64,000 bases of DNA from Roseovarius sp. SCSIO 43702 (GTDB taxonomy: Bacteria > Pseudomonadota > Alphaproteobacteria > Rhodobacterales > Rhodobacteraceae), in contig NZ_CP080623.1 in assembly GCF_019599045.1 (NCBI RefSeq), forward strand, positions 3,370,501-3,434,500, in the 5' to 3' direction. Position 1 is the first letter of the stretch; the number at the start of each line of letters is the position of its first letter. Shown here piece by piece: positions 4,061 through 58,756 of the stretch. Made by a program: the position numbers and the translations under genes. The notes under the pieces were generated by a model, which worked only from the letters and a program-made list of their open reading frames with translations, searched no databases and was not told the DNA's origin.

Positions 4061-4789
4061 TCAATCGTCCTGTAGCAGCAGCCGGTTTTCTTCCATCAGG
4101 TTCAGCTTCACGAATTCCACCGCCGCCTCCACGTCCCGCGAGGCGATAGCGTTGAAAAGCGTGTTGTAGCGCCTCTGCGCGTCCTGGATGCGATTGGGTG
4201 TCAGGTGCCGGCGCAGAAGCGCGCTGCGAAAGCTCTGGTGGCTCGCCTCGATCGCAAGCTCGTAGCACGAGGCCAGAAGCGGGTTCTCGGTGCCGCGCGC
4301 GATCTTGAGCAGCATCTCTTCCTCGAGCTGCACGAACTCCGCCACGTCGGTGCGCACCGCCTCGAGCCGGCTGAGCGTCTTGTCGAGATCCTCGATGGCG
4401 CGCGGCGGCATGTTGATCACCGCGAGGCGCACGATCTCGGGCTCGAGGATGCCGCGCACCACGAGGTGATCGAGCGGGCTGGTCTCCGACGCGATGGAAC
4501 CGACCGAGGGGCTTTGCGGCGTGTCCGAGCGATAGGTCACGAAGCTGCCCGACCCCGCGCGGCGGCGGATCACGCCCCGCGCCTCGAGCACGTCGAGCGC
4601 CTCGCGCACCGTGTTGCGCGCGACCCCCAGTTCGGAGGCCAGCGTGCGCTCGGACGGAAGGCGCGTGTCCACCGGGTATTCCTCGGACTTGATCCGCGCG
4701 AAAAGCGTGTCGATCACCACCCGCGCGGTCGCGCCGATGGACTGGTCCGGGTCGATCGGCATCGTCTCGTCGGTGGGGGATGCGGCCAT
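4061..4789 (-). CDS. GntR-family transcriptional regulator, FadR/FCD subfamily
   Basis: 242 aa. N-terminal winged helix-turn-helix at about residues 22-85 with the GntR signature RLPSERTLASELGVARNTVR and a wing around RRRAGSGSFV, followed by an all-helical FCD ligand-binding domain (about 100-235). Such proteins usually repress catabolic genes and bind organic acids, often through metal-coordinating histidines. The ligand cannot be told. It converges with the orphan binding protein and diverges from the ArsR-GT61 pair, so either could be its target. Standard length and no defects. Confidence 0.9.
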   Translation of the reverse strand: MAASPTDETMPIDPDQSIGATARVVIDTLFARIKSEEYPVDTRLPSERTLASELGVARNTVREALDVLEARGVIRRRAGSGSFVTYRSDTPQSPSVGSIASETSPLDHLVVRGILEPEIVRLAVINMPPRAIEDLDKTLSRLEAVRTDVAEFVQLEEEMLLKIARGTENPLLASCYELAIEASHQSFRSALLRRHLTPNRIQDAQRRYNTLFNAIASRDVEAAVEFVKLNLMEENRLLLQDD

Positions 4790-40365: not shown

Positions 40366-41145
40366 TCAGATCGCGCGTTCGACCATCATCTTCTTGATCT
40401 CGGCAATGGCCTTCGCGGGGTTGAGGTTCTTGGGGCAGGTCTTGGTGCAATTCATGATCGTGTGGCACCGGTAGAGCTTGAACGGATCTTCCAGGTCGTC
40501 GAGCCGCTCGCCCGTCGCCTCGTCCCGGCTGTCGACGATCCAGCGATAGGCATGCAACAGCGCGGCCGGCCCGAGATACTTGTCGCCGTTCCACCAGTAG
40601 CTCGGACAGGCGGTCGAGCAGGAGGCGCACATCACGCATTCGTAAAGCCCGTCAAGCTTCTCGCGGTCCTCGATCGACTGCTTCCACTCCTTCGCCGGCC
40701 GGTTCGTCTTGGTCTCGAGCCAAGGCATGATCGAGGCATGTTGCGCATAGAAATGCGTCAAGTCGGGGATCAAATCCTTGACCACGGGCATATGGGGCAA
40801 CGGATAGATCTTCACGTCGCCCTTCACCTCGTCGAGCCCGTAGATACAGGCCAGCGTGTTGATCCCCCCGATATTCATCGCGCACGAGCCGCAGATACCC
40901 TCGCGGCAGGAGCGGCGGAAGGTGAGCGTCGGGTCGATCTCGTTCTTGATCTTGATGAGTGCGTCCAGGACCATCGGCCCGCACTTGTCCATGTCGAGGA
41001 AATAGGTGTCGAGACGCGGGTTGTCGCCGCTGTCGGGATCGTAGCGATAGATCTGGAACTTGCGGACATTCGTGGCACCCTCGGGCTCGGGCCACGTCTT
41101 GCCCCGCGTGATGCGCGAGTTCTTGGGTAGGGTAAGCTGAACCAT
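40366..41145 (-). CDS. sdhB: Succinate dehydrogenase iron-sulfur subunit
   Basis: 259 aa. Carries three clusters: [2Fe-2S] cysteines in [22 protein letters not shown], [4Fe-4S] in [12 protein letters not shown] and [3Fe-4S] in [12 protein letters not shown]. Links the flavin of SdhA to the quinone site of SdhCD. Standard length. It is separated from sdhA by two small lipoprotein genes instead of following directly. The ZIP-like gene begins 7 bases after its stop. Confidence 0.97.
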
Positions 41146-41481: not shown

Positions 41482-41765
41482 GTCGCACCCTCCGCAAGGC
41501 AGGCATTGGCCTTGTCCATCTGGTCGTCCGACACGGCCCCGCCCGAGACGATGCGCACGATGGGCCTGCCCTCGTCGAAGAACGTTTCGGTCTCGTAATC
41601 CCCGCGCACCCCTGCACGCGCCGCGCAAAGCTCGAGCCGCTCGGGCGGCCCGCCAAGCCTGGGCGGCTCCTGCGCCGGAACGGGCGCCGAAGAGCCCCCG
41701 CTCGCCTCGCAGGCGGCGAGCGGCAGGACCGCGAGCGCGGGCCATATGGCACGCGACAGCGGCAT
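41478..41765 (-). CDS. Small lipoprotein embedded in sdh operon (first)
   Basis: 95 aa: [24 protein letters not shown]..., a lipobox (LAAC) after a signal peptide. The mature region is Pro/Gly-rich for 25 residues and then compact with two cysteines (ELCAARAG, ANACLAEGAT) and FFDEGRPIVRIVSGG. The start shares one base with the sdhA stop (TGATG) and its stop overlaps the next lipoprotein as ATGA, so translation is coupled to sdhA. No family is recognised. Confidence 0.65.
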   Translation of the reverse strand: MPLSRAIWPALAVLPLAACEASGGSSAPVPAQEPPRLGGPPERLELCAARAGVRGDYETETFFDEGRPIVRIVSGGAVSDDQMDKANACLAEGAT

Positions 41766-43567
41766 CAGAACGTGCGTTCCTTGGGCGCGATCTTCTTGAG
41801 ACTGATGCCGCCCTCGTCCTCGGTGGTCAGCGGCTCCTCGATGATCGGGCGATAGCTCAGCTCCACATCGGTGCCGTCCACGCGGGCGATGGTATGAACG
41901 CGCCAGTTCTCGTCGTCGCGCTTCTCGTAATCCTCGTGCGCATGGGCACCCCGGCTCTCGTGACGCGCCTCGGCGCCGTGGATGGTGGCCAACGCGTTCG
42001 GCATGAGGTTGGTCAGCTCCAGCGTCTCCATCAGGTCGCTGTTCCAGATCATGCCACGATCCGTGACCTTGAGGTCCGAGAGCTTCCCGGCGATCTCGGT
42101 CATCCGCTCGACCCCCTGCTTGAGCGTCTTCGACGTGCGGAAGACGGCCGCGTCCTCCTGCATCGTGCGCTGCATCTCGTCGCGAAGCTCCGCGGTGGGC
42201 GTGTCCCCGTCCGCGTGACGGATTCGGTCGAACCGGTCCAGCGCCTTGTCGACCTGCTCCTTGTTCGTGCCCGGAACCGCGCTGTCGTGGTCCACCACCT
42301 TGCCCGCGCGAATGGCCGCGGCACGGCCAAAGACGACGAGGTCGATGAGCGAGTTCGAGCCCAGACGGTTCGCGCCATGCACGCTGGCGCAGCCCGCCTC
42401 GCCCACGGCCATGAGGCCCGGCACCACCGCGTGCGGATCGTCCTCGGTCGGATTCACCACCTCGCCCCAGTAATTCGTGGGGATGCCGCCCATGTTGTAA
42501 TGCACCGTCGGGATGACCGGAATCGGCTCCTTGGTCACGTCCACGCCGGCAAAGATCTTGGCGCTTTCCGAGATCCCCGGCAGCCGCAGGTTCAGCGCCT
42601 CGGGCGGCAGGTGGCTGAGGTTGAGGTGGATATGATCGCCCTTCTCGCCCACGCCGCGCCCCTCGCGGATCTCCATCGTCATCGAGCGGCTGACATAGTC
42701 GCGCGGCGCCAGGTCCTTGTATTGCGGGGCATAGCGTTCCATGAACCGCTCGCCCTCGGAATTGGTGAGATAGCCGCCCTCGCCCCGCGCGCCCTCGGTG
42801 ATCAGGCACCCAGAGCCATAGATGCCGGTCGGATGGAACTGCACGAACTCCATGTCCTGCAAGGGCAGGCCCGCACGGGCCACCATCCCGCCGCCATCCC
42901 CGGTGCAGGTATGCGCCGACGTCGCGCTGAAATACGCCCGGCCATAGCCGCCGGTGGCCAGAACGACCATCTTGGCGTTGAAGACATGCATCGTGCCGTC
43001 CTCGAGCTTCCAGCACACGACCCCGGTGCAGGCCCCGTCGGTCATGATCAGGTCGATGGCGAAATACTCGATATAGAACTCGGCCTTCTGCTTGAGGCTC
43101 TGGCCATAGAGCGTGTGCAGGATCGCGTGGCCCGTCCTGTCGGCCGCGGCACAGGTGCGCTGCACGGCCGGGCCTTCTCCGAACTCGGTCGTGTGCCCGC
43201 CGAAGGGGCGCTGGTAGATCTTGCCTTCCTCGGTGCGCGAGAACGGCACGCCGTAATGCTCGAGCTCATAGACCGCCTTGGGCGCCTCGCGCGCGAGATA
43301 CTCCATCGCGTCCGTGTCACCCAGCCAGTCCGACCCCTTCACGGTGTCGTACATGTGCCACTGCCAGTGATCCGGCCCCATGTTGCTGAGGCTCGCCGCG
43401 ATGCCGCCCTGCGCGGCCACGGTGTGCGACCGCGTGGGAAACACCTTGGTCACGCAGGCCGTGCGCAACCCCTGCTCGGCCATGCCCAGCGTCGCCCGAA
43501 GACCGGCGCCGCCGGCTCCGACGACCACGACATCGTAATCATGCGTCTCGTATTCGTAAGCAGCCAT
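41765..43567 (-). CDS. sdhA: Succinate dehydrogenase flavoprotein subunit
   Basis: 600 aa. Oxidises succinate to fumarate with covalently bound FAD. FAD-binding [20 protein letters not shown] at the N-terminus, the covalent-attachment histidine in [13 protein letters not shown], and active-site features such as [17 protein letters not shown] and the C-terminal [11 protein letters not shown] segment. All standard. Ten bases follow sdhD. The stop overlaps the first lipoprotein start. Confidence 0.97.
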
Positions 43568-43963: not shown

Positions 43964-44347
43964 TCAGATGATCAGAAGTGTGAGCACGGTCAGGACGACC
44001 GAGCCGATGACACAGACCCAGCCCAGCATCTCGGCGGTCCGAAGCTCGAGTCCCTTGCCCGCATCCCAGTAGAGATGCCGCAGCCCCGCCAGGTAGTGAT
44101 ACCACACCGCCCAGAGCGACAGCACGAAGACCAGGTCGCCGAACCACGAGGTGACGACCGCGTCGGCCGTGGCGAAATACTCGGGTCCGGCCGCCGCCGC
44201 CAGGAGCCACCAGACCCCCAGCAGGAACGCCACGATAAGCGCGTTGCCCGTGATCCGCGTCAGGATCGAACTGACCGACGTGATCTGCGGGCGATAGATA
44301 CTCAGGTGGGGTGAAAGCGGGCGGTCGCCCCGGTTCACATCTGCCAT
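43964..44347 (-). CDS. sdhC: Succinate dehydrogenase cytochrome b556 subunit
   Basis: 127 aa from ATG 44347; extended starts upstream lack family similarity. SPHLSIYRPQITSVSSILTRITG is the SdhC signature with the Ser and Arg lining the quinone pocket; H84-region HYLAGLRHLYWD includes the heme b histidine. Three membrane helices. First gene of the sdh operon; paired GTGATCAC palindromes sit about 155 bases upstream. Confidence 0.94.
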   Translation of the reverse strand: MADVNRGDRPLSPHLSIYRPQITSVSSILTRITGNALIVAFLLGVWWLLAAAAGPEYFATADAVVTSWFGDLVFVLSLWAVWYHYLAGLRHLYWDAGKGLELRTAEMLGWVCVIGSVVLTVLTLLII

Positions 44348-44501: not shown

Positions 44502-44529
44502 GTGATCACCCTAAATTTTCAGTGATCAC
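44502..44529. promoter_or_regulatory. Paired GTGATCAC palindromes upstream of sdhC
   Basis: Two GTGATCAC sites (44502-44509 and 44522-44529), centre to centre 20 bases, with an AAATT core between them. The whole is a near-perfect inverted repeat ATGTGATCAC...GTGATCACAT. A matching pair is found upstream of sucC, so a shared regulator of TCA-cycle operons is likely. The regulator is not identified. Confidence 0.65.
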
Positions 44530-44560: not shown

Positions 44561-45592
44561 CTAGATCGGCACGAGCGCCCAGTAGTCGAGGTCGAGCAAC
44601 ACGTCCGCGAGGTATTTTCCGTCACCGCCCCGCAGTGCGCCGGGCGCACCGCCCTTCGTCGCCACCAGCCGCAGCCGCAGCGCGCCGATGCCCGGCACAT
44701 CCGTCTCGGCCTTGTCCAGCACCTCCGACCAGGCGCGCACCGTATCGCCGGCGAAACACGGATTGGCATGTGCCCCGGCATTGAGGCCCACGATCATCTG
44801 CGCGTTGGCCAGCCCGTTGAAACTGAGCGCGCGCGCCATCGAGATCACGTGCCCGCCATAGATGAGCCGCCGCCCGTCCGGTCGCGCCGACGCATCGAAA
44901 TGCACCTTGGCGGTGTTCTGCCACAGGCGCGTCGCCATCATGTGCTCGGCTTCCTCGATGGTCACGCCATCCACGTGGTCGATCGTTTCGCCCGGCTCAT
45001 AGTCGCCCCAGCGATGCGGCTCGCCGGCGAGTTCGAAATCGTAACCCGAGAAGTCCAGCCCCTCGGGCACCATCAGGTCGCCCGCCTCGAGCGCGGGCTT
45101 CAGGTCGGGGATCACCGGCTCGGGCGCGGCGCTTCCCTGCTCCCGCTTGCGCACCATCACCCAGCGCACGTACTCGAGAACCGCCTCGCCATGCTGGTTG
45201 GTTCCCGTCGTGCGGACCCAGACCACGCCCGACTTTCCGTTCGAGTTCTGCTTCAGCCCGATCACCTCGGAGCTCGAGCGCAGCGTATCTCCCGGCCAAA
45301 CGGGCCGAAGCCACCGCCCCTCGGCATAGCCCAGGTTGGCCAGCGCATTGAGCGAGATGTCGGGCACCGTCTTGCCGAAGACCGTATGGAACGCCGCAAG
45401 GTCGTCCATCGGGCTCGCGCGCAATCCGCAAGCCTGCGCGAAGGCATCCGACGAGTAGATCGCGTGCCGCGCCGGGTAGAGCGCGTGATAGAGCGCGCGC
45501 TCGCCCGCGCCGATCGTGCGCGGCACCGCATGGCCGATCGTCTCGCCGACCGCGTAATCCTCGAAGAACCGGCCCGGGTTGGTCTTGGCCAT
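44561..45592 (-). CDS. mch: Mesaconyl-CoA hydratase (MaoC-like, tandem hot-dog)
   Basis: 343 aa from ATG 45592. Two hot-dog domains of the MaoC type (about 8-150 and 195-340), including FFEDYAVGETIGHAVPRTIG, the FYLWPGDTLR-like PVWPGDTLRSSSEVIG, and EPGETIDHVDGVTIEEAEH in the second half. In Rhodobacter this enzyme makes beta-methylmalyl-CoA from mesaconyl-CoA in the ethylmalonyl-CoA pathway. Placement with malyl-CoA thioesterase and sdh supports this over an ordinary enoyl hydratase. Two bases separate it from the DUF1737 gene. Confidence 0.85.
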   Translation of the reverse strand: MAKTNPGRFFEDYAVGETIGHAVPRTIGAGERALYHALYPARHAIYSSDAFAQACGLRASPMDDLAAFHTVFGKTVPDISLNALANLGYAEGRWLRPVWPGDTLRSSSEVIGLKQNSNGKSGVVWVRTTGTNQHGEAVLEYVRWVMVRKREQGSAAPEPVIPDLKPALEAGDLMVPEGLDFSGYDFELAGEPHRWGDYEPGETIDHVDGVTIEEAEHMMATRLWQNTAKVHFDASARPDGRRLIYGGHVISMARALSFNGLANAQMIVGLNAGAHANPCFAGDTVRAWSEVLDKAETDVPGIGALRLRLVATKGGAPGALRGGDGKYLADVLLDLDYWALVPI

Positions 45593-45594
45593 GC

Positions 45595-45798
45595 TCACTG
45601 CGCCCCGAGCTTCGTGTCGGGCGAATAGGTGCCGGGCGCATCCTTCACTACCGCCTGGCCGCACCGCATCACGCCGTTGGCACTATCGAAGGCATAGGTG
45701 GGATCGCCGTAAAGCTCCCAGCCCTTGTTCAGCGCATCCGTCACCTTGTGACAGAAAGCCGAGGTATCGTCCTCGGTCAGCAAACGATAGAGTTTCAT
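45595..45798 (-). CDS. DUF1737-family small protein
   Basis: 67 aa: MKLYRLLTEDDTSAFCHKVT then LNKGWELYGDPTYAFD and AVVKDAPGTYSPDTKLGAQ. Typical DUF1737 (short, soluble, conserved LNKGWEL). It has no known function. It lies 11 bases after the NnrU gene and 2 bases before mch, deep inside the operon, so a role near the ethylmalonyl-CoA enzymes is suspected from position only. Confidence 0.75.
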   Translation of the reverse strand: MKLYRLLTEDDTSAFCHKVTDALNKGWELYGDPTYAFDSANGVMRCGQAVVKDAPGTYSPDTKLGAQ

Positions 45799-45809
45799 GC
45801 TCTCTCTCC

Positions 45810-46361
45810 TCAATGCGGGAAGGGCCACACGCCCAGCCATGCGTGAATCGCGGCGATGACCGCGAAGGCCACCACCGTCATGACGACAAGGATGATGTCG
45901 CGGCTCGCCGGTCCGGGCTCGGGCCGGTCCCAGGGGCCGGCGCGGTTGATCACGATCACCTCCGCCACGGCCCAGGCGAGGAGTCCGCCGAAAAGCAGGA
46001 TCGACACCGCGTCGCCGTTGACCAGCAGGTGCGCCACCGCCCAGACCTTCACCGCCGTGAGTTGCGGATGCCGCATCTTCCCGCGCAGCCGCCCCTTGGT
46101 CTCGCTCATCGCGAAGAGGAACACGGCCCCCACCATCAGCAGGTTGTTGAGATGCACGGTCCAGGCGGGCGGGGTCCAGACCGGGATGAACTCCGCCATG
46201 CGGTAGCCCACGATCATCAGGACGAGGCCCAAGCCCACCCCCAGCGCAACGATCCCGCGACCGGCATTGCCCATCGCCGCCCGCCGCTCGGGCGCGATCC
46301 GCTTGAAGAAATGCGCCAGCGCCCAGAGCGCCAGCCCGAGAAGAACAAGTGCAAACCCCAT
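45810..46361 (-). CDS. NnrU-family membrane protein
   Basis: 183 aa with about six membrane helices. Features: GFALVLLGLALWALAHFFKR, HLNNLLMVGAVFLFAMSETKGRLRGKMRHPQLTAVKVWAVAHLLVNGD with conserved His, Lys and Arg. NnrU is known near nitric-oxide and nitrite reductase genes and is related to heme-dependent zeta-carotene isomerase Z-ISO. Here it sits between mcl2 and DUF1737 with gaps of 3 and 11 bases, with no denitrification gene around. The conserved His residues may bind heme. Confidence 0.8.
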   Translation of the reverse strand: MGFALVLLGLALWALAHFFKRIAPERRAAMGNAGRGIVALGVGLGLVLMIVGYRMAEFIPVWTPPAWTVHLNNLLMVGAVFLFAMSETKGRLRGKMRHPQLTAVKVWAVAHLLVNGDAVSILLFGGLLAWAVAEVIVINRAGPWDRPEPGPASRDIILVVMTVVAFAVIAAIHAWLGVWPFPH

Positions 46362-46364
46362 CGC

Positions 46365-47225
46365 TCAGGCCTCCGCCATTTCGGCCACCGCATCCGCGCG
46401 GGCCAGCACGCGCCGGGCGGCGACGACATGCAGGTTCTCGACGATCTGTCCGTCCACCACGGCGATCCCCTGCCCCGAGGCCATGCTGTCCTCGTAGGCG
46501 GCGATCTGCCGGCGCGCGAGGTCGATCTCCGAGTTCGTCGGCGCAAAGGCCACGTTGGCGCCCTCGATCTGCGCCGGATGGATCAGCGTCTTGCCGTCGA
46601 AGCCCAGGTCCCGCCCCTGCTCGCACTCGGCCTTGAGGCCCTCGCCGTCGCGGAAGCGGTTATAGACCCCGTCCACCGCCACGATCCGCGCCGCCCGCGC
46701 GGCCATCACGATGGTCTGGAGCGCGGTCATGAGAGGCATCCGGTCCGCGCGGTATCGCGCGCCCAGATCCTTGATCAGGTCGTTCGTTCCGGTGACGAGC
46801 CCTGCCACCCGCGCATGCGCCGCGATCTCGCGCGCGTTGAAGACGCTGGCCGGCGTTTCCATCATCACCCAGATCGGCAGGTCGCGCGGCAGGAGATCGG
46901 CAAGGCTGTCCACGTCCGGCGCGGCGTTCACCTTGGGAAGCAGGATCGCGTCCGCCCCCGCGTCGCGCAACACCCGCACATCCTCGAGACCCCACTCGGT
47001 CGTCAGCGCGTTGATCCGCACGATCTTGGCGCGCTTGCCGTACCCGCCTTCGGCCAGCGCGCGCTTGAGCGTCTCGCGCGCCTCGGCCTTCGCGTCGGGC
47101 GCCACCGCGTCCTCGAGGTCGAAGATGATCGCATCGGCGGCAAGCGTCCGCGCCTTCTCGAGCGCGCGTTCCTTCGAGCCGGGGATGTAAAGCACGGAGC
47201 GATAAGGATGGGTCGTCATGTCCAT
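46365..47225 (-). CDS. mcl2: (3S)-malyl-CoA thioesterase (Mcl2-like CoA ester lyase)
   Basis: 286 aa from the first ATG; ATG 47219 (MTTHPYRSVLYIPG) is equally plausible. TIM-barrel HpcH/HpaI aldolase-CitE family: SVLYIPGSKERALEKA, FDLEDAVAPDAK (acidic metal ligands), RINALTTEWG, VMMETPASVFNAREI and DLGFDGKTLIHPAQ. In Rhodobacter, Mcl2 hydrolyses (3S)-malyl-CoA from the Mcl1 reaction to malate, and its gene is near mch. Mcl1 versus Mcl2 is decided from length and recollection of sequence, so moderately certain. Confidence 0.8.
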   Translation of the reverse strand: MDMTTHPYRSVLYIPGSKERALEKARTLAADAIIFDLEDAVAPDAKAEARETLKRALAEGGYGKRAKIVRINALTTEWGLEDVRVLRDAGADAILLPKVNAAPDVDSLADLLPRDLPIWVMMETPASVFNAREIAAHARVAGLVTGTNDLIKDLGARYRADRMPLMTALQTIVMAARAARIVAVDGVYNRFRDGEGLKAECEQGRDLGFDGKTLIHPAQIEGANVAFAPTNSEIDLARRQIAAYEDSMASGQGIAVVDGQIVENLHVVAARRVLARADAVAEMAEA

Positions 47226-50099: not shown

Positions 50100-50483
50100 T
50101 CTCTCCGTCCCCCTTCAGCATGTCTTCCTGACAGCCCCGGCCGCGAGCCGGGTCCAATGTCCGAACCGCTCAAACCCCACATGGTTCCCGCGACGGCCGC
50201 GCGCAGCGCCCGAGCCCGACGCGGGGACGCCCGCGAACCGCGATCGGATGCCGCAAATGGTCCCTGCGAAACCTCCCCCACGTCAACGCCTCAAGCAGCA
50301 GTGTTCCGGGCTTCCGCGCACGGAAAAACCGCGATACGTCGCCTTGTGATCACGGCAAATTACCATGTGATCACGATACCGGGAAATATCGCTCAAATTA
50401 GCGTCATCGCCCAGAATCCCCTTTAACTTCGCCGCAAGCTGCACACTATGCCAAGCCAATTCGGACCAACACGGGATAAGTTC
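50100..50483. other. Divergent gap upstream of sucC
   Basis: 384 bases without a gene between the coiled-coil protein and sucC. The half nearest sucC is AT-richer and carries paired GTGATCAC palindromes (50346-50374). The other half is GC-rich like coding DNA but no plausible protein was seen. Promoters for both genes are expected here. Confidence 0.6.
50346..50374. promoter_or_regulatory. Paired GTGATCAC palindromes upstream of sucC
   Basis: GTGATCAC at 50346-50353 and 50367-50374, centre to centre 21 bases, with AAATT between them, about 110-138 bases before the sucC start. Same site, spacing and AT core as upstream of sdhC. Probably bound by the same dimeric regulator. Confidence 0.65.
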
Positions 50484-51677
50484 ATGAACATCCACGAGTA
50501 TCAGGCGAAGGCGCTGCTGCGCTCCTATGGCGCGCCGGTTTCGGACGGTCGCGTCGTCCTGCGCGCCGAAGAGGCCAAGCGCGCGGCGAGCGAGATGGAC
50601 GGACCTCTCTGGGTGGTCAAGGCCCAGATCCACGCCGGCGGCCGCGGCAAGGGCAAGTTCAAGGAACCGGGCGCCGGAGACGAGGGCGGCGTGCGCCTCG
50701 CCCGCTCGGTCGAGGAAGCCGCCGAGGAAACCAAGAAGATGCTGGGCCGCACCCTCGTGACCAAGCAGACCGGCGAAGCCGGCAAGCAGGTGAACCGCGT
50801 CTATATCGAGGACGGATCGGGCATCGAAAGCGAATTCTACCTCGCCCTTCTCGTCGATCGTCAGACCAGCCGCGTGAGCTTCGTCGCCTCGACCGAGGGC
50901 GGCATGGACATCGAGGAGGTGGCCGAGAAGACCCCCGACAAGATCCTGTCCTTCAGCGTCGATCCCGCGACCGGCTACCAACCGTTCCACGGCCGCCGCA
51001 TCGCCTTCAACCTCGGGCTTTCGGGCAAGCAGGTGAAGCAATGCGTTTCGCTGATGGGCACGCTCTACAGGATGTTCCTCGAGAAAGACATGGAGATGCT
51101 CGAGATCAACCCGCTCATCGTCACCGACGAGGGCGATCTCAAGTGCCTCGACGCCAAGATGGGCTTCGACGGCAATGCCATCTACCGCCACTCCGACATC
51201 GCCGAGCTGCGCGACACGACCGAGGAAGACCCCAAGGAGCTGGAGGCGTCGAAATACGACCTCAACTACATCGCGCTCGACGGCGAGATCGGCTGCATGG
51301 TCAACGGCGCGGGCCTTGCCATGGCGACGATGGACATCATCAAGCTCTACGGCGCCGAGCCCGCCAATTTCCTCGACGTGGGCGGCGGCGCGACCAAGGA
51401 GAAAGTGACCGAGGCGTTCAAGATCATCACCTCGGACCCGCAGGTGAAGGGCATCCTCGTCAACATCTTCGGCGGCATCATGCGCTGCGACGTCATCGCC
51501 GAGGGCGTGGTCGCGGCGGTCAAGGAGGTGGGCCTCAAGGTGCCGCTGGTCGTGCGGCTGGAAGGCACGAATGTCGAGCAGGGCAAGGAGATCATCAACA
51601 ATTCAGACGTGGACGTGATCGCCGCCGACGACCTCAAGGACGGCGCGCAGAAGATCGTGAAGGCGGTGAAGGGGTGA
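50484..51677 (+). CDS. sucC: Succinyl-CoA synthetase (ADP-forming) beta subunit
   Basis: 397 aa from ATG 50484. ATP-grasp domain ([37 protein letters not shown]), metal and nucleotide ligands [17 protein letters not shown], and the C-terminal ligase half [20 protein letters not shown]. Acts with SucD in the TCA cycle. Its TGA shares a base with the ATG of the next, exported, protein (TGATG). Standard length. Confidence 0.97.
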
Positions 51678-52365: not shown

Positions 52366-53250
<885 letters not shown>

Positions 53251-54184: not shown

Positions 54185-57145
54185 ATGACCGACCAATCCC
54201 CCAACGACCAGTTCCACGCCTCGAGCTTCATGCAGGGCCACAACGCCGAGTATCTCGAGCAGCTCTACGCCCGTTACGCAAACGATCCCGACGCGGTCGA
54301 CCAGTCCTGGCGCGAGTTCTTCGCGCAGATGGACGACAGCGAGATCGAGGTGAAGGCCGAGGCCGCCGGCCCCTCCTGGGCGCGCGCCGACTGGCCGCCG
54401 ATGCCGATGGACGACCTGACCGGCGCGCTCACCGGCGAATACCCGCCCGAGATCGAGGCGAAGGAAGCCGCCAGGAAGATCGCCGCCAAGGCAACCGAGA
54501 AGGGCGTCGAGGTCTCCGACGAGGCGATCAAGCGCGCGGTGCTCGATTCGGTGCGCGCGCTCATGCTCATCCGCGCCTATCGCATCCGTGGTCACCTCAT
54601 CGCCGATCTCGATCCGCTCGGCCTGCGCGAACAGACCTACCAGCCCGAGCTTGATCCCCGGTCCTACGGCTTCACCGAGGCCGACATGGACCGGCCGATC
54701 TTCATCGACAACGTGCTGGGCCTCCAGGTCGCCTCGATCCGCGAGATCCTCGACGTGGTGCGCTCGACCTATTGCGGCACCTTCGCGCTGCAATACATGC
54801 ACATCTCCGACCCCGAGCAATCCGCCTGGCTCAAGGAGAGGATCGAGGGCTACGACAACGAGATCCGCTTCACCCGCGAAGGGCGCAAGGCCATCCTCAA
54901 CAAGCTCGTTGAGGCCGAGGGATTCGAGAAATACCTGCATGTGAAATACATGGGCACCAAGCGGTTCGGCCTCGACGGGGGCGAGTCGCTCATCCCGGCG
55001 ATGGAGCAGATCATCAAGCGCGGCGGCGCGCTCGGCGTGAAGGACATCATCATCGGGATGCCTCACCGCGGCCGTCTCTCGGTGCTGGCCAACGTCATGG
55101 GCAAGCCCTACCGCGCCATCTTCCACGAATTCCAGGGCGGCTCCTTCAAACCCGAGGACGTGGACGGCTCGGGCGACGTGAAATACCATCTCGGCGCCTC
55201 GTCCGACCGCGAGTTCGACGGCAATTCCGTGCACCTTTCGCTCACCGCGAATCCCTCGCATCTCGAGGCGGTGAACCCCGTGGTGCTGGGCAAGGCGCGC
55301 GCCAAGCAGGACCAGAACCACGACAAGGAGCGGACGACCGTGCTCCCGGTGCTGCTTCACGGTGACGCGGCCTTCGCCGGGCAGGGCGTCGTGGCCGAGT
55401 GTTTCGGCCTGTCGGGCCTCAAGGGGCACAAGACCGGCGGCACCATGCATATCGTGGTCAACAACCAGATCGGCTTTACCACCGCGCCGCATTTCTCGCG
55501 CTCATCGCCCTATCCCACCGACATCGCGCTGATGGTCGAAGCGCCGATCTTCCACGTCAACGGCGACGACCCCGAGGCGGTCGTGCACGCCGCGAAGGTC
55601 GCGACCGAGTTCCGGCAGAAGTTCAAGAAGGACGTGGTGATCGACATCTTCTGCTACCGCCGCTTCGGCCACAATGAGGGGGACGAACCGATGTTCACCA
55701 ACCCCATCATGTACAAGAAGATCAAGCAGCAGAAATCCACCCTCTCGCTCTATACCGAGCGCCTGGTCAAGGACGGCCTGATCCCGGAGGGCGAGATCGA
55801 GGACATGAAGGCCGAGTTCCAGGCGTTCCTCGCCGACGAGTTCGAGGCCGGCAAGGATTACAAACCGAACAAGGCCGACTGGCTGGACGGCAAGTGGTCG
55901 CATCTCGACCGCAAGGACGAGGATTACCAGCGCGGCGAGACGGCGATCGACGGCGACACCTTCGACGAGATCGGCCGGGCGCTGACCACGGCGCCGGACG
56001 GCTTCCCGCTGCACAAGACCGTCCAGCGCCTGCTCGAGAACAAGGCCAGGATGTTCGAGAGCGGCGAAGGGTTCGATTGGGCCACGGCCGAGGCGCTGGC
56101 CTTCGGTTCGCTCCAGCTCGAGGGATACCCGGTGCGCCTCTCCGGCCAGGACAGCGCGCGCGGCACCTTCAGCCAGCGGCACTCGGCGCTCATCAACCAG
56201 GAGACCGAGGAACGGTATTACCCGCTGAACCACATCCGCAAGGGCCAGGCAGGATACGAGGTCATCGACTCGATGCTCTCGGAATACGCGGTGCTGGGCT
56301 TCGAATACGGCTATTCTCTGGCCGAACCCAACGCCCTCGTGCTGTGGGAGGCGCAGTTCGGCGATTTCGCCAACGGCGCGCAGATCATGTTCGACCAGTT
56401 CATCTCGTCGGGCGAATCCAAGTGGCTGCGGATGTCGGGGCTCACCTGCCTTCTGCCGCACGGCTACGAGGGGCAGGGGCCGGAACATTCCTCCGCCCGG
56501 CTCGAGCGGTTCCTCACCATGTGCGGCCAGGACAACTGGATCGTCGCCAACTGCACGACGCCGGCGAACTATTTCCACATCCTGCGCCGGCAGCTTCACC
56601 GCACCTACCGCAAGCCGCTCATCCTGATGACGCCCAAGTCGCTGCTCCGGCACCGGCTCTGCGTTTCGAAGAAGGACGAGTTCACGACCGGATCGTCCTT
56701 CCACCGCGTGCTCTGGGACGATGCGCAATACGGCAACTCCGACACCAGGCTGGTGGCGGATGACAAGATCAGGCGCGTCGTCCTCTGCTCGGGCAAGGTC
56801 TATTACGACCTGCTCGAGGAGCGCGACAACCGCGGCATCGACGACATCTACCTGATGCGCATCGAACAGTTCTATCCCTTCCCGGCCCAGGCGATGGTCA
56901 AGGAGATGGAGCGTTTCACCGATGCCGAGATCGTCTGGTGCCAGGAAGAACCCAAGAACCAGGGCGCCTGGTCCTTCATCGAGCCCAATATCGAATGGGT
57001 GCTGACCCGCATCGACGCCAAGCACCAGCGGCCCGTCTATGTCGGTCGCCCCGCCGCGGCCTCGCCCGCCACCGGCCTGGCCTCCACCCACAAGCAACAA
57101 CAGGAAGCGCTGGTCGACGCCGCGCTGACCATCGAAGGGAATTAA
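54185..57145 (+). CDS. sucA: 2-oxoglutarate dehydrogenase E1 component
   Basis: 986 aa. Thiamine-diphosphate enzyme starting oxidative decarboxylation of 2-oxoglutarate. N-terminal SFMQGHNAEYLEQLYARYANDPD-like lead, HGDAAFAGQGVVAECFGLSG with the ThDP/His region, FVVNNQIGFTT, and the C-terminal dehydrogenase half with HGYEGQGPEHSSARLERFL and YHRKPL-like RTYRKPLILMTPKSLLRH. Full length. ATG 54185 follows a GAGGT. Three bases separate its stop from sucB. Confidence 0.97.
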   Translation: MTDQSPNDQFHASSFMQGHNAEYLEQLYARYANDPDAVDQSWREFFAQMDDSEIEVKAEAAGPSWARADWPPMPMDDLTGALTGEYPPEIEAKEAARKIAAKATEKGVEVSDEAIKRAVLDSVRALMLIRAYRIRGHLIADLDPLGLREQTYQPELDPRSYGFTEADMDRPIFIDNVLGLQVASIREILDVVRSTYCGTFALQYMHISDPEQSAWLKERIEGYDNEIRFTREGRKAILNKLVEAEGFEKYLHVKYMGTKRFGLDGGESLIPAMEQIIKRGGALGVKDIIIGMPHRGRLSVLANVMGKPYRAIFHEFQGGSFKPEDVDGSGDVKYHLGASSDREFDGNSVHLSLTANPSHLEAVNPVVLGKARAKQDQNHDKERTTVLPVLLHGDAAFAGQGVVAECFGLSGLKGHKTGGTMHIVVNNQIGFTTAPHFSRSSPYPTDIALMVEAPIFHVNGDDPEAVVHAAKVATEFRQKFKKDVVIDIFCYRRFGHNEGDEPMFTNPIMYKKIKQQKSTLSLYTERLVKDGLIPEGEIEDMKAEFQAFLADEFEAGKDYKPNKADWLDGKWSHLDRKDEDYQRGETAIDGDTFDEIGRALTTAPDGFPLHKTVQRLLENKARMFESGEGFDWATAEALAFGSLQLEGYPVRLSGQDSARGTFSQRHSALINQETEERYYPLNHIRKGQAGYEVIDSMLSEYAVLGFEYGYSLAEPNALVLWEAQFGDFANGAQIMFDQFISSGESKWLRMSGLTCLLPHGYEGQGPEHSSARLERFLTMCGQDNWIVANCTTPANYFHILRRQLHRTYRKPLILMTPKSLLRHRLCVSKKDEFTTGSSFHRVLWDDAQYGNSDTRLVADDKIRRVVLCSGKVYYDLLEERDNRGIDDIYLMRIEQFYPFPAQAMVKEMERFTDAEIVWCQEEPKNQGAWSFIEPNIEWVLTRIDAKHQRPVYVGRPAAASPATGLASTHKQQQEALVDAALTIEGN

Positions 57146-57148
57146 GTC

Positions 57149-58756
57149 ATGACCACCGAAGTCCGCGTCCCCACACTTGGCGAATCCGTGACCGAGGCCA
57201 CGGTCGCCACCTGGTTCAAGAAGCCCGGCGACCCCGTTGCCGCCGATGAAATGCTCTGCGAACTCGAAACCGACAAGGTCACGGTCGAGGTGCCCGCACC
57301 CGCCGCCGGCACGATGGGCGACATCATCGCCGCCGAGGGCGAGACCGTCGGCGTCGACGCCCTGCTGGCCACCATCGAGGAAGGCGAGGGCAAGGCGGCG
57401 GGCGATGGCGGCAAGAAGACCGCCGCGGAGCCGAAACCCGAGCCGGAGCCCGAGGCCAAGCCCGAGCCCGACGAGGCCAAGACCAGGCCGGCCAAGCCCG
57501 AAACCAACGGCGACAAGGGCAATGTCGACGTGATGGTGCCCACCCTGGGCGAATCCGTCACCGAGGCGACCGTGTCCACATGGTTCAAGAAGGTGGGCGA
57601 CGACGTGGCCCAGGACGAGATGCTCTGCGAGCTCGAGACCGACAAGGTCTCGGTCGAGGTGCCCTCGCCCGCCGCCGGCACGCTCGTCGACATCCTCGCG
57701 CAGGAGGGCGACACCGTTCAGGCCAACGGCAAGCTCGCGGTGCTTTCGGGCTCCGCCGACGGCACCATCTCACCCGAGATCCGCCCCGAGCCGATGGACA
57801 AGGAAGCGAATGGCGGCCAATACAGCACGCCGCCCGCCGGCCGTGACGCCGAAGATGTCGAGGATGCGCCCTCCGCCAGGAAGGCGATGGCCGAGGCCGG
57901 CCTGTCGCGCGACGAGGTCGAGGGCACGGGCCGCGATGGCCGCGTCATGAAAGAGGACGTGGCCCGGGCCAGGTCCTCCGATACCACGAGCGCGGCGCCG
58001 AAACCCTCCGCGGCCCCCGCCGGCCCGCAACGCGCGCCGAGCCCCGCCGAGGACGCCTCGCGCGAGGAACGGGTCAAGATGACCCGCCTGCGCCAGACCA
58101 TCGCCCGCCGCCTCAAGGAGGCGCAGAATACCGCGGCCATGCTCACCACCTACAACGAGGTGGACATGACCGGGATCATGGCACTCCGGTCCGAGTACAA
58201 GGAGGAATTCCAGAAGAAGCACGGCGTGAAACTCGGCTTCATGTCCTTCTTCACCAAGGCCTGTTGCCATGCGCTCAAGGAGGTGCCCGAGGTCAACGCC
58301 GAGATCGACGGGGACGAGATCGTCTACAAGAACTTCGTGCACATGGGCATCGCCACGGGCACGCCGACGGGTCTCGTGGTGCCGGTCGTGCGCGACGCCG
58401 ATTCCATGTCCTTCGCCGAGATCGAGAAGGCCATCGCCGAGAAGGGCGCCCGCGCCCGCGACGGCAAGCTCTCCATGGCCGAGATGCAGGGCGGCACCTT
58501 CACGATCTCGAACGGCGGCGTTTACGGCTCGCTCATGTCCTCGCCCATCCTCAACCCGCCGCAATCGGGCATCCTCGGCATGCACAAGATCCAGGAGCGT
58601 CCCATGGTCGTGAACGGCGAGATCGTCGCCCGCCCCATGATGTATCTCGCGCTCAGCTACGATCACCGCATCGTCGACGGCAAGGGGGCGGTCACGTTCC
58701 TCGTGCGCGTGAAGGAGGCGCTGGAGGACCCGCGTCGGTTGCTGATGGATTTGTGA
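57149..58756 (+). CDS. sucB: Dihydrolipoyllysine succinyltransferase E2 with two lipoyl domains
   Basis: 535 aa, longer than the single-lipoyl E2o of E. coli. Two lipoyl domains, about 2-77 and 125-200, each with a lipoylated lysine in an ETDKV[TS]VEV motif. They are joined by a Pro/Glu/Lys-rich linker of about 45 residues. A peripheral subunit-binding domain is seen at about 233-270 ([19 protein letters not shown]) and a catalytic domain ends with [11 protein letters not shown] (catalytic His-Asp). Forms the 24-mer core with SucA and Lpd. Four bases precede the BrnT-like start. Confidence 0.95.

Follow-up and report, generated by a model that had tools for sequence, protein, structure and literature searches.

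Two pairs of GTGATCAC palindromes, one ahead of sdhC and one ahead of sucC in Roseovarius sp. SCSIO 43702, are very probably operators of the GntR-family activator AkgR. According to this reading, to which a probability of about 85% is assigned, two AkgR dimers would occupy each pair from one face of the DNA helix and activate the steps of the citric acid cycle from 2-oxoglutarate to fumarate, and AkgR would repress its own gene in part of the family. An earlier note on this DNA, which described the pairs, left the motif unnamed and knew of no regulator with this exact consensus. However, GTGATCAC is reported among the AkgR binding sites of Rhodobacter sphaeroides (PMC6365646), which links the motif to an activator already described for the citric acid cycle.

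Paired sites in the window and in the genome

The window, i.e. the whole stretch of 64,000 nucleotides that was analysed, contains exactly four GTGATCAC octamers (Table 1), compared with a mean of 1.18 expected; four or more were obtained in 2 of 100 shuffles. The octamers form two pairs. The sdh pair (44502-44529) has the 12-bp spacer CCTAAATTTTCA and a centre-to-centre distance of 20 bp, and it lies about 155 bp from the sdhC ATG at 44347 on the minus strand. The suc pair (50346-50374) has the 13-bp spacer GGCAAATTACCAT and a centre-to-centre distance of 21 bp, and is located 110 bp from the sucC ATG at 50484. Positions and distances given for both pairs in the earlier note are correct. The AAATT that it saw between the sites is present in both window spacers, but does not hold as a conserved core, as the middle of the spacer is merely A/T-rich across the aligned loci of relatives, with no fixed AAATT.

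Table 1. Features of the sdh and suc regions, with positions in the window
Feature	Position	Strand	Basis
Probable sdhB, downstream of sdhC, same direction	40366..41145	-	Fer2_3, 4Fe-4S domains
sdhA, downstream of sdhC, same direction	41765..43567	-	FAD_binding_2, Succ_DH_flav_C
sdhC (127 aa), gene next downstream of the sdh pair	43964..44347	-	reading frame; Pfam Sdh_cyt, E 4.3e-28
GTGATCAC, sdh pair, promoter-proximal site	44502..44509	.	sequence, genome-wide pair search
GTGATCAC, sdh pair, promoter-distal site	44522..44529	.	sequence, genome-wide pair search
GTGATCAC, suc pair, promoter-distal site	50346..50353	.	sequence, genome-wide pair search
GTGATCAC, suc pair, promoter-proximal site	50367..50374	.	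sequence, genome-wide pair search
TTAACT, predicted -35 box of sucC, 48 bp past the pair	50423..50428	+	predicted from sequence and position in relatives
TATGCC, predicted -10 box of sucC, 18-bp spacing	50447..50452	+	predicted from sequence and position in relatives
sucC (397 aa), gene next downstream of the suc pair	50484..51677	+	ATP-grasp_2, Ligase_CoA
sucD	52366..53250	+	CoA_binding, Ligase_CoA
sucA, 2-oxoglutarate dehydrogenase E1	54185..57145	+	E1_dh, OxoGdeHyase_C
sucB, 2-oxoacid dehydrogenase acyltransferase	57149..58756	+	2-oxoacid_dh, Biotin_lipoyl

A search of the whole genome (3,612,261 bases) for exact GTGATCAC pairs with a spacer of 8-16 bp returned the sdh and suc pairs only, and 0 pairs in the reversed control. 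The occurrence of just these two pairs in a genome of 3.6 Mb, together with the empty control, argues against chance. Looser pairs with up to three mismatches are more frequent, with 76 matches for a 13-bp spacer (reversed control 1) and 15 for a 12-bp spacer (reversed control 0). Since a 21-bp repeat is in codon phase, many of these mismatched pairs may be coding repeats, and they were left out as evidence for targets. Sites resembling TTGTGATCACAA with up to two mismatches number 29 in this genome (reversed control 8); two of them constitute the suc pair, and four others that were inspected all overlap open reading frames.

The genes sucC, sucD, sucA and sucB follow each other on one strand and are presumed to form a single operon. 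Between sdh and mdh, the window (44561-47225) also contains a mesaconyl-CoA-hydratase-like gene and an HpcH/HpaI aldolase-like gene, and matches of both kinds recur near the pairs in many of the loci compared.

Conservation of the pair

Of 198 family genomes (one per genus, the present one counted), 175 carry one or more exact pairs with a spacer of 11-14 bp (reversed control 0), so that a small regulon appears to be kept in 175 of the 198 sampled genera. Most positive genomes carry two pairs, others one, and four genomes carry three; in G189, the third pair has a spacer of 11 bp and matches neither sdh nor suc. Across 385 genomes sampled from the class, all five family genomes, the present one included, carry the pair, as do 5 of the 380 others. 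The latter five have one pair each, and the reversed control yields 5 in one of them (G271) and 0 in the other four. At one locus outside the family (L192, 992-1020), the pair is located between a TonB-receptor gene and a GntR/FCD gene, and a dehydrogenase-like reading frame comes next.

A scan of species genomes provided at least 120 stretches with the pair. After removal of repeats of the same sdh or suc site, 157 pairs were kept (L001-L158), of which 123 were assigned by gene match (50 sdh, 73 suc), 3 sdh and 4 suc more by neighbouring genes, and 27 to neither. Among the species-scan matches listed, 15 of 80 titled loci are neither sdh nor suc, and 14 of these 15 are titled as other groups. 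The fifteenth is a pair with a G/C-rich spacer and without sdh or suc match in a bin titled Rhodobacteraceae (L104, 3613). One of the 27 unassigned pairs is a third GTGATCAC pair of genome G042 (L022, 1501-1529), located ahead of fumC (Lyase_1, FumaraseC_C), which would add a further reaction of the citric acid cycle to the regulon. In two further genomes, G135 and G191 (L317, L324), a third octamer at a 21-bp step ahead of sucC creates a triple GTGATCAC array.

Within 174 sdh and suc loci the spacer is N13 in 156 and N12 in 18, in line with the two helical turns proposed in the earlier note. The suc loci aligned on the pair read TTTGTGATCACAC...TGTGATCACAAA, with a conserved flanking T and A and no conservation of the bases farther upstream; conservation of the octamers within this locus set is given by construction, because the loci were fetched by the exact pair. 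Neither a random spread of pairs through the genome nor their loss from the sdhC and sucC promoters of relatives, the two outcomes that the earlier note had set against its own proposal, was found. The sdh and suc pairs are real and very probably functional.

AkgR as the probable regulator of the sdh and suc pairs

In R. sphaeroides, the GntR regulator RSP_0981 is predicted to control sucCD, sdh and the 2-oxoglutarate dehydrogenase genes sucAB (PMC4344238), and AkgR is called a transcriptional activator (PMC6365646). We infer that RSP_0981 is AkgR. The targets expected of AkgR are matched in the window by the pairs ahead of sdhC and of sucC, the latter with sucD, sucA and sucB behind it, and the idea of one regulator for succinate dehydrogenase and the suc operon is supported. 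This regulator is very probably AkgR, and the regulon is very probably the known AkgR regulon, encountered here in another genome.

The genome contains 15 GntR matches, 11 of them over the cut-off. The likely akgR is G000:C1:570489-571133 (group B), which encodes a protein of 215 aa with GntR and FCD domains and shares 65-79% identity with the corresponding genes in nine genomes compared; family, motif and gene neighbourhood suggest that it is orthologous to R. sphaeroides akgR. In the FCD part of AkgR, N136, H140 and H183 are invariant across 39 AkgR loci, and FCD proteins usually have D at the position of N136. In this genome and many others akgR lies elsewhere, unlinked to the sdh and suc operons, and in at least seven genomes it is found within 18 kb of a pair (about 5 kb in G051, 9-12 kb in G001, G120, G124, G154 and G197, and about 18 kb in G063). 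In 16 relatives, up to 20 kb downstream of sdh contained no GntR gene; several of these relatives have akgR on the other side of sdh. Three GntR genes considered as first guesses for the regulator (L159, L160 and L162) have no NCBIfam model over the cut-off and were discarded. The window itself contains a further GntR domain (4538-4726, minus strand) within a 257-aa open frame.

A single GTGATCAC is present near the akgR start, i.e. between 120 bp before and 60 bp after the aligned start, in 33 of 39 loci of a first sample that is biased towards close relatives (38 genes, G052 being present twice). It is mostly positioned 16-20 bp before the aligned start, after a TTGAC. The site occurs in 29 of the 30 best-scoring matches to the AkgR of this genome and in 4 of 9 loci picked for other reasons. 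The sole exception among the 30 is this genome itself: no GTGATCAC precedes its akgR, and GAGGCGCACA is found where relatives have the site, which by comparison with these relatives appears to have been lost. A second sample contained the site in 20 of 40 loci, namely in 16 of 20 next-ranked and 4 of 20 low-ranked ones. As the site thins out in the wider sample, the single akgR site is a property of closer relatives and not of the whole family. In genomes that have it, the site suggests repression of akgR by its own product. The expectation of the earlier note that a helix-turn-helix gene would carry the pair at its own promoter thus came true in part: a single GTGATCAC is found at akgR of closer relatives, but akgR of this genome and of most of the farther relatives sampled is devoid of it.

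Promoter position and helical phasing

Downstream of the pair, 59 of 77 sdh loci contain a strict promoter pattern ([GTA]TGAC and TA at 16-bp spacing), which was chosen after inspection of the promoters and has 0 matches on the reverse strand as control. All 59 predicted -35 boxes are found at three ranges of offset past the pair, 57-60 bp (46 loci), 68-70 bp (6 loci) and 78-80 bp (7 loci). These clusters are one helical turn apart, which corresponds to shifts in whole-turn steps. Relaxing the spacing to 15-18 bp increases the number to 63 of 77 loci, adding one at 48, an outlier at 11 and two in the main cluster. A Rayleigh test on the sdh offsets gives a strong signal near 10.5 bp, most of which comes from the main cluster that the loci share. 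A quick and weakly supported tree of sdhA DNA from 58 of the 77 loci requires 12 or more changes of offset class among the classified rows; its well-supported branches by themselves force only two for the class shifted by two turns and three for the class shifted by one. The sdh promoter of the present genome has no match to the strict pattern.

For suc, a looser pattern is found in 18 of 97 loci, 13 of them at an offset of 47-48, one turn from the main sdh cluster, and 5 elsewhere. The best-scoring sigma70-like boxes were also tried for suc and abandoned, their positions being scattered. Counted from the predicted boxes, the proximal site would be centred some 90 bp (suc) to 97 bp (sdh) upstream of the transcription start, and the distal site 20-21 bp beyond it.

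Between pair and promoter, the A/T content peaks every 10-10.5 bp. The periodic power at 9.5-11.5 bp in this region reaches 0.96 for suc (97 loci; shuffle maximum 0.015) and 0.66 for sdh (75 loci; shuffle maximum 0.026). On the upstream side of the pair it is 0.04 for suc and 0.05 for sdh, which is still above the respective shuffle maxima of 0.022 and 0.029. Strong periodicity downstream and weak periodicity upstream mean that the strong A/T pattern points to the promoter. The phased tracts may curve the DNA, or they may provide the alpha subunits of the polymerase with successive contact points.

The distance between pair and promoter bears on the proposal of the earlier note that the pair serves a dimeric or cooperative repressor, which would block transcription of sdh and suc. 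Predicted -35 boxes that are mostly found 47-80 bp downstream of the pair, and in helical phase in the case of sdh, speak against such a repressor, while the fact that GntR/FCD proteins are often repressors counts for it, as do the suitability of paired palindromes at two helical turns for cooperative repressors and the single site ahead of akgR in closer relatives, which sits where a repressor would act. With nearly all predicted boxes at least 47 bp downstream and with AkgR described as an activator (PMC6365646), the proposal is probably wrong, and we consider a repressor operator unlikely.

Co-occurrence of akgR and the operator

An akgR orthologue (E below 1e-55) is present in 177 of the 198 family genomes; operator and akgR are both present in 172 genomes, the operator alone in 3, akgR alone in 5, and neither in 18 (Fisher p 2.7e-18, uncorrected for shared ancestry). 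The cut-off was placed after a gap had been seen in the table, with 1.8e-57 as the weakest match counted and 6.9e-49 as the strongest left out, and the counts were read by eye from the genome tables. The operator occurs without an akgR match in G019, G096 and G114 (completeness 91, 77 and 100%). Conversely, akgR occurs without an exact pair in G040, G122, G147, G155 and G166. G040 has one-mismatch pairs ahead of sucC and of sdhC. The other four are 76, 73, 92 and 71% complete and have 3, 6, 7 and 7 matches, respectively, to pairs with a 13-bp spacer and up to two mismatches; the two best matches of each genome include none at sdh or suc.

Because this statistic ignores shared ancestry, it would also accommodate a different reader of the pair with akgR merely co-occurring, for example the GntR paralogue G000:C1:544799-545503 (group A), which shares 36-40% identity with AkgR orthologues and resembles them in its recognition helix, or a CRP/FNR-type protein. 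However, in the region from 250 bp upstream to 60 bp downstream of the aligned start of the paralogue, 27 of 30 loci contain TTTGATCAA or TTGATCAAA and 0 of 30 contain GTGATCAC, and close orthologues of the paralogue (44-100% identity) occur in 94 of 198 genomes, well below the number with the operator, which is tracked by akgR. With a different upstream palindrome and a much narrower distribution than the operator, the group A paralogue was rejected as regulator, and another reader of the pair is very unlikely. At the group A loci (L244-L273), TTTGATCAA and TTGATCAAA are mostly positioned 50-90 bp before the aligned start.

A model for activation by AkgR

In the proposed model, the GntR/FCD protein AkgR would activate the part of the citric acid cycle that leads from 2-oxoglutarate to fumarate. 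Each palindrome would bind one AkgR dimer, placing two dimers side by side on one DNA face at a distance of 20-21 bp, i.e. two helical turns, and their centres some 90-100 and 110-120 bp ahead of the transcription start. From this position, the dimers may assist RNA polymerase at the sdh and suc promoters, presumably by contact, while the helix-phased A/T tracts might curve the intervening DNA or present their minor grooves to the alpha subunits of the polymerase. In part of the family, the single site at the akgR promoter would in addition allow AkgR to repress itself. The sites, their pairing and conservation, the co-occurrence with akgR, the phasing of the predicted sdh promoters and the single akgR site in closer relatives, on which the model draws, are read from genome sequences.

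A more specific version of the AkgR model is a helical ruler, in which paired dimers about 90-130 bp upstream would act on RNA polymerase across the phased A/T tracts and selection would permit changes of spacing by whole turns only, with self-repression from a single site in part of the family; we lean slightly towards this version. That the pair instead acts as an RNA element, its octamers forming an up to 11-bp stem around a 13-base loop (TTTGTGATCAC-N13-GTGATCACAAA), as the two sites are also mutual reverse complements, has a negligible probability, since every octamer is palindromic by itself, single copies precede akgR in relatives, triple arrays at 21 bp exist in two genomes, and the predicted promoters are downstream of the pair, which should therefore not be transcribed from them.

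The proposed binding of AkgR to paired sites raises the mechanistic question of whether a GntR activator can touch RNA polymerase from about -100 through phased and possibly curved DNA. The family furthermore provides natural variation that shows over what distances, and by which increments, an activator site can shift with respect to its promoter. The architecture, with its strict pairing, triple arrays and whole-turn shifts, may be new; a literature search of partial coverage recognised no paper on paired AkgR sites or their phasing, and absence from print is not claimed.

Comparison with known systems

The closest system is AkgR of R. sphaeroides itself, a GntR-type protein with the same GTGATCAC motif (PMC6365646) and, with RSP_0981 taken as AkgR, the same predicted targets sucCD, sucAB and sdh (PMC4344238). 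Set beside it, the features found here are the pairing at 20-21 bp and the whole-turn phasing of sdh, as well as the single akgR site in some relatives, the triple arrays and one fumC target.

The same palindrome GTGATCAC is proposed for PS417_07240, a GntR-like regulator of Pseudomonas simiae to which AkgR is 32% identical, and is found at -47 to -40 of the start of that regulator gene (PMC6365646). PS417_07240 governs a catabolic deoxyribonate cluster, unlike AkgR with its targets in the citric acid cycle (PMC6365646).

A second R. sphaeroides regulator, CceR, is similar in its targets, as its regulon is reported to include succinate dehydrogenase and 2-oxoglutarate dehydrogenase (PMC11323563); for succinate dehydrogenase, control by CceR is also predicted in PMC4344238. 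CceR belongs to the LacI family, unlike the GntR-family AkgR, and is likened to it here by targets and not by motif.

Class I activators such as CRP work at positions that are one helical turn apart. The sdh promoters resemble these systems in that activity would be kept upon whole-turn shifts of the site; unlike in CRP, the pattern described here represents natural variation between genera and involves a paired site about 90-120 bp upstream.
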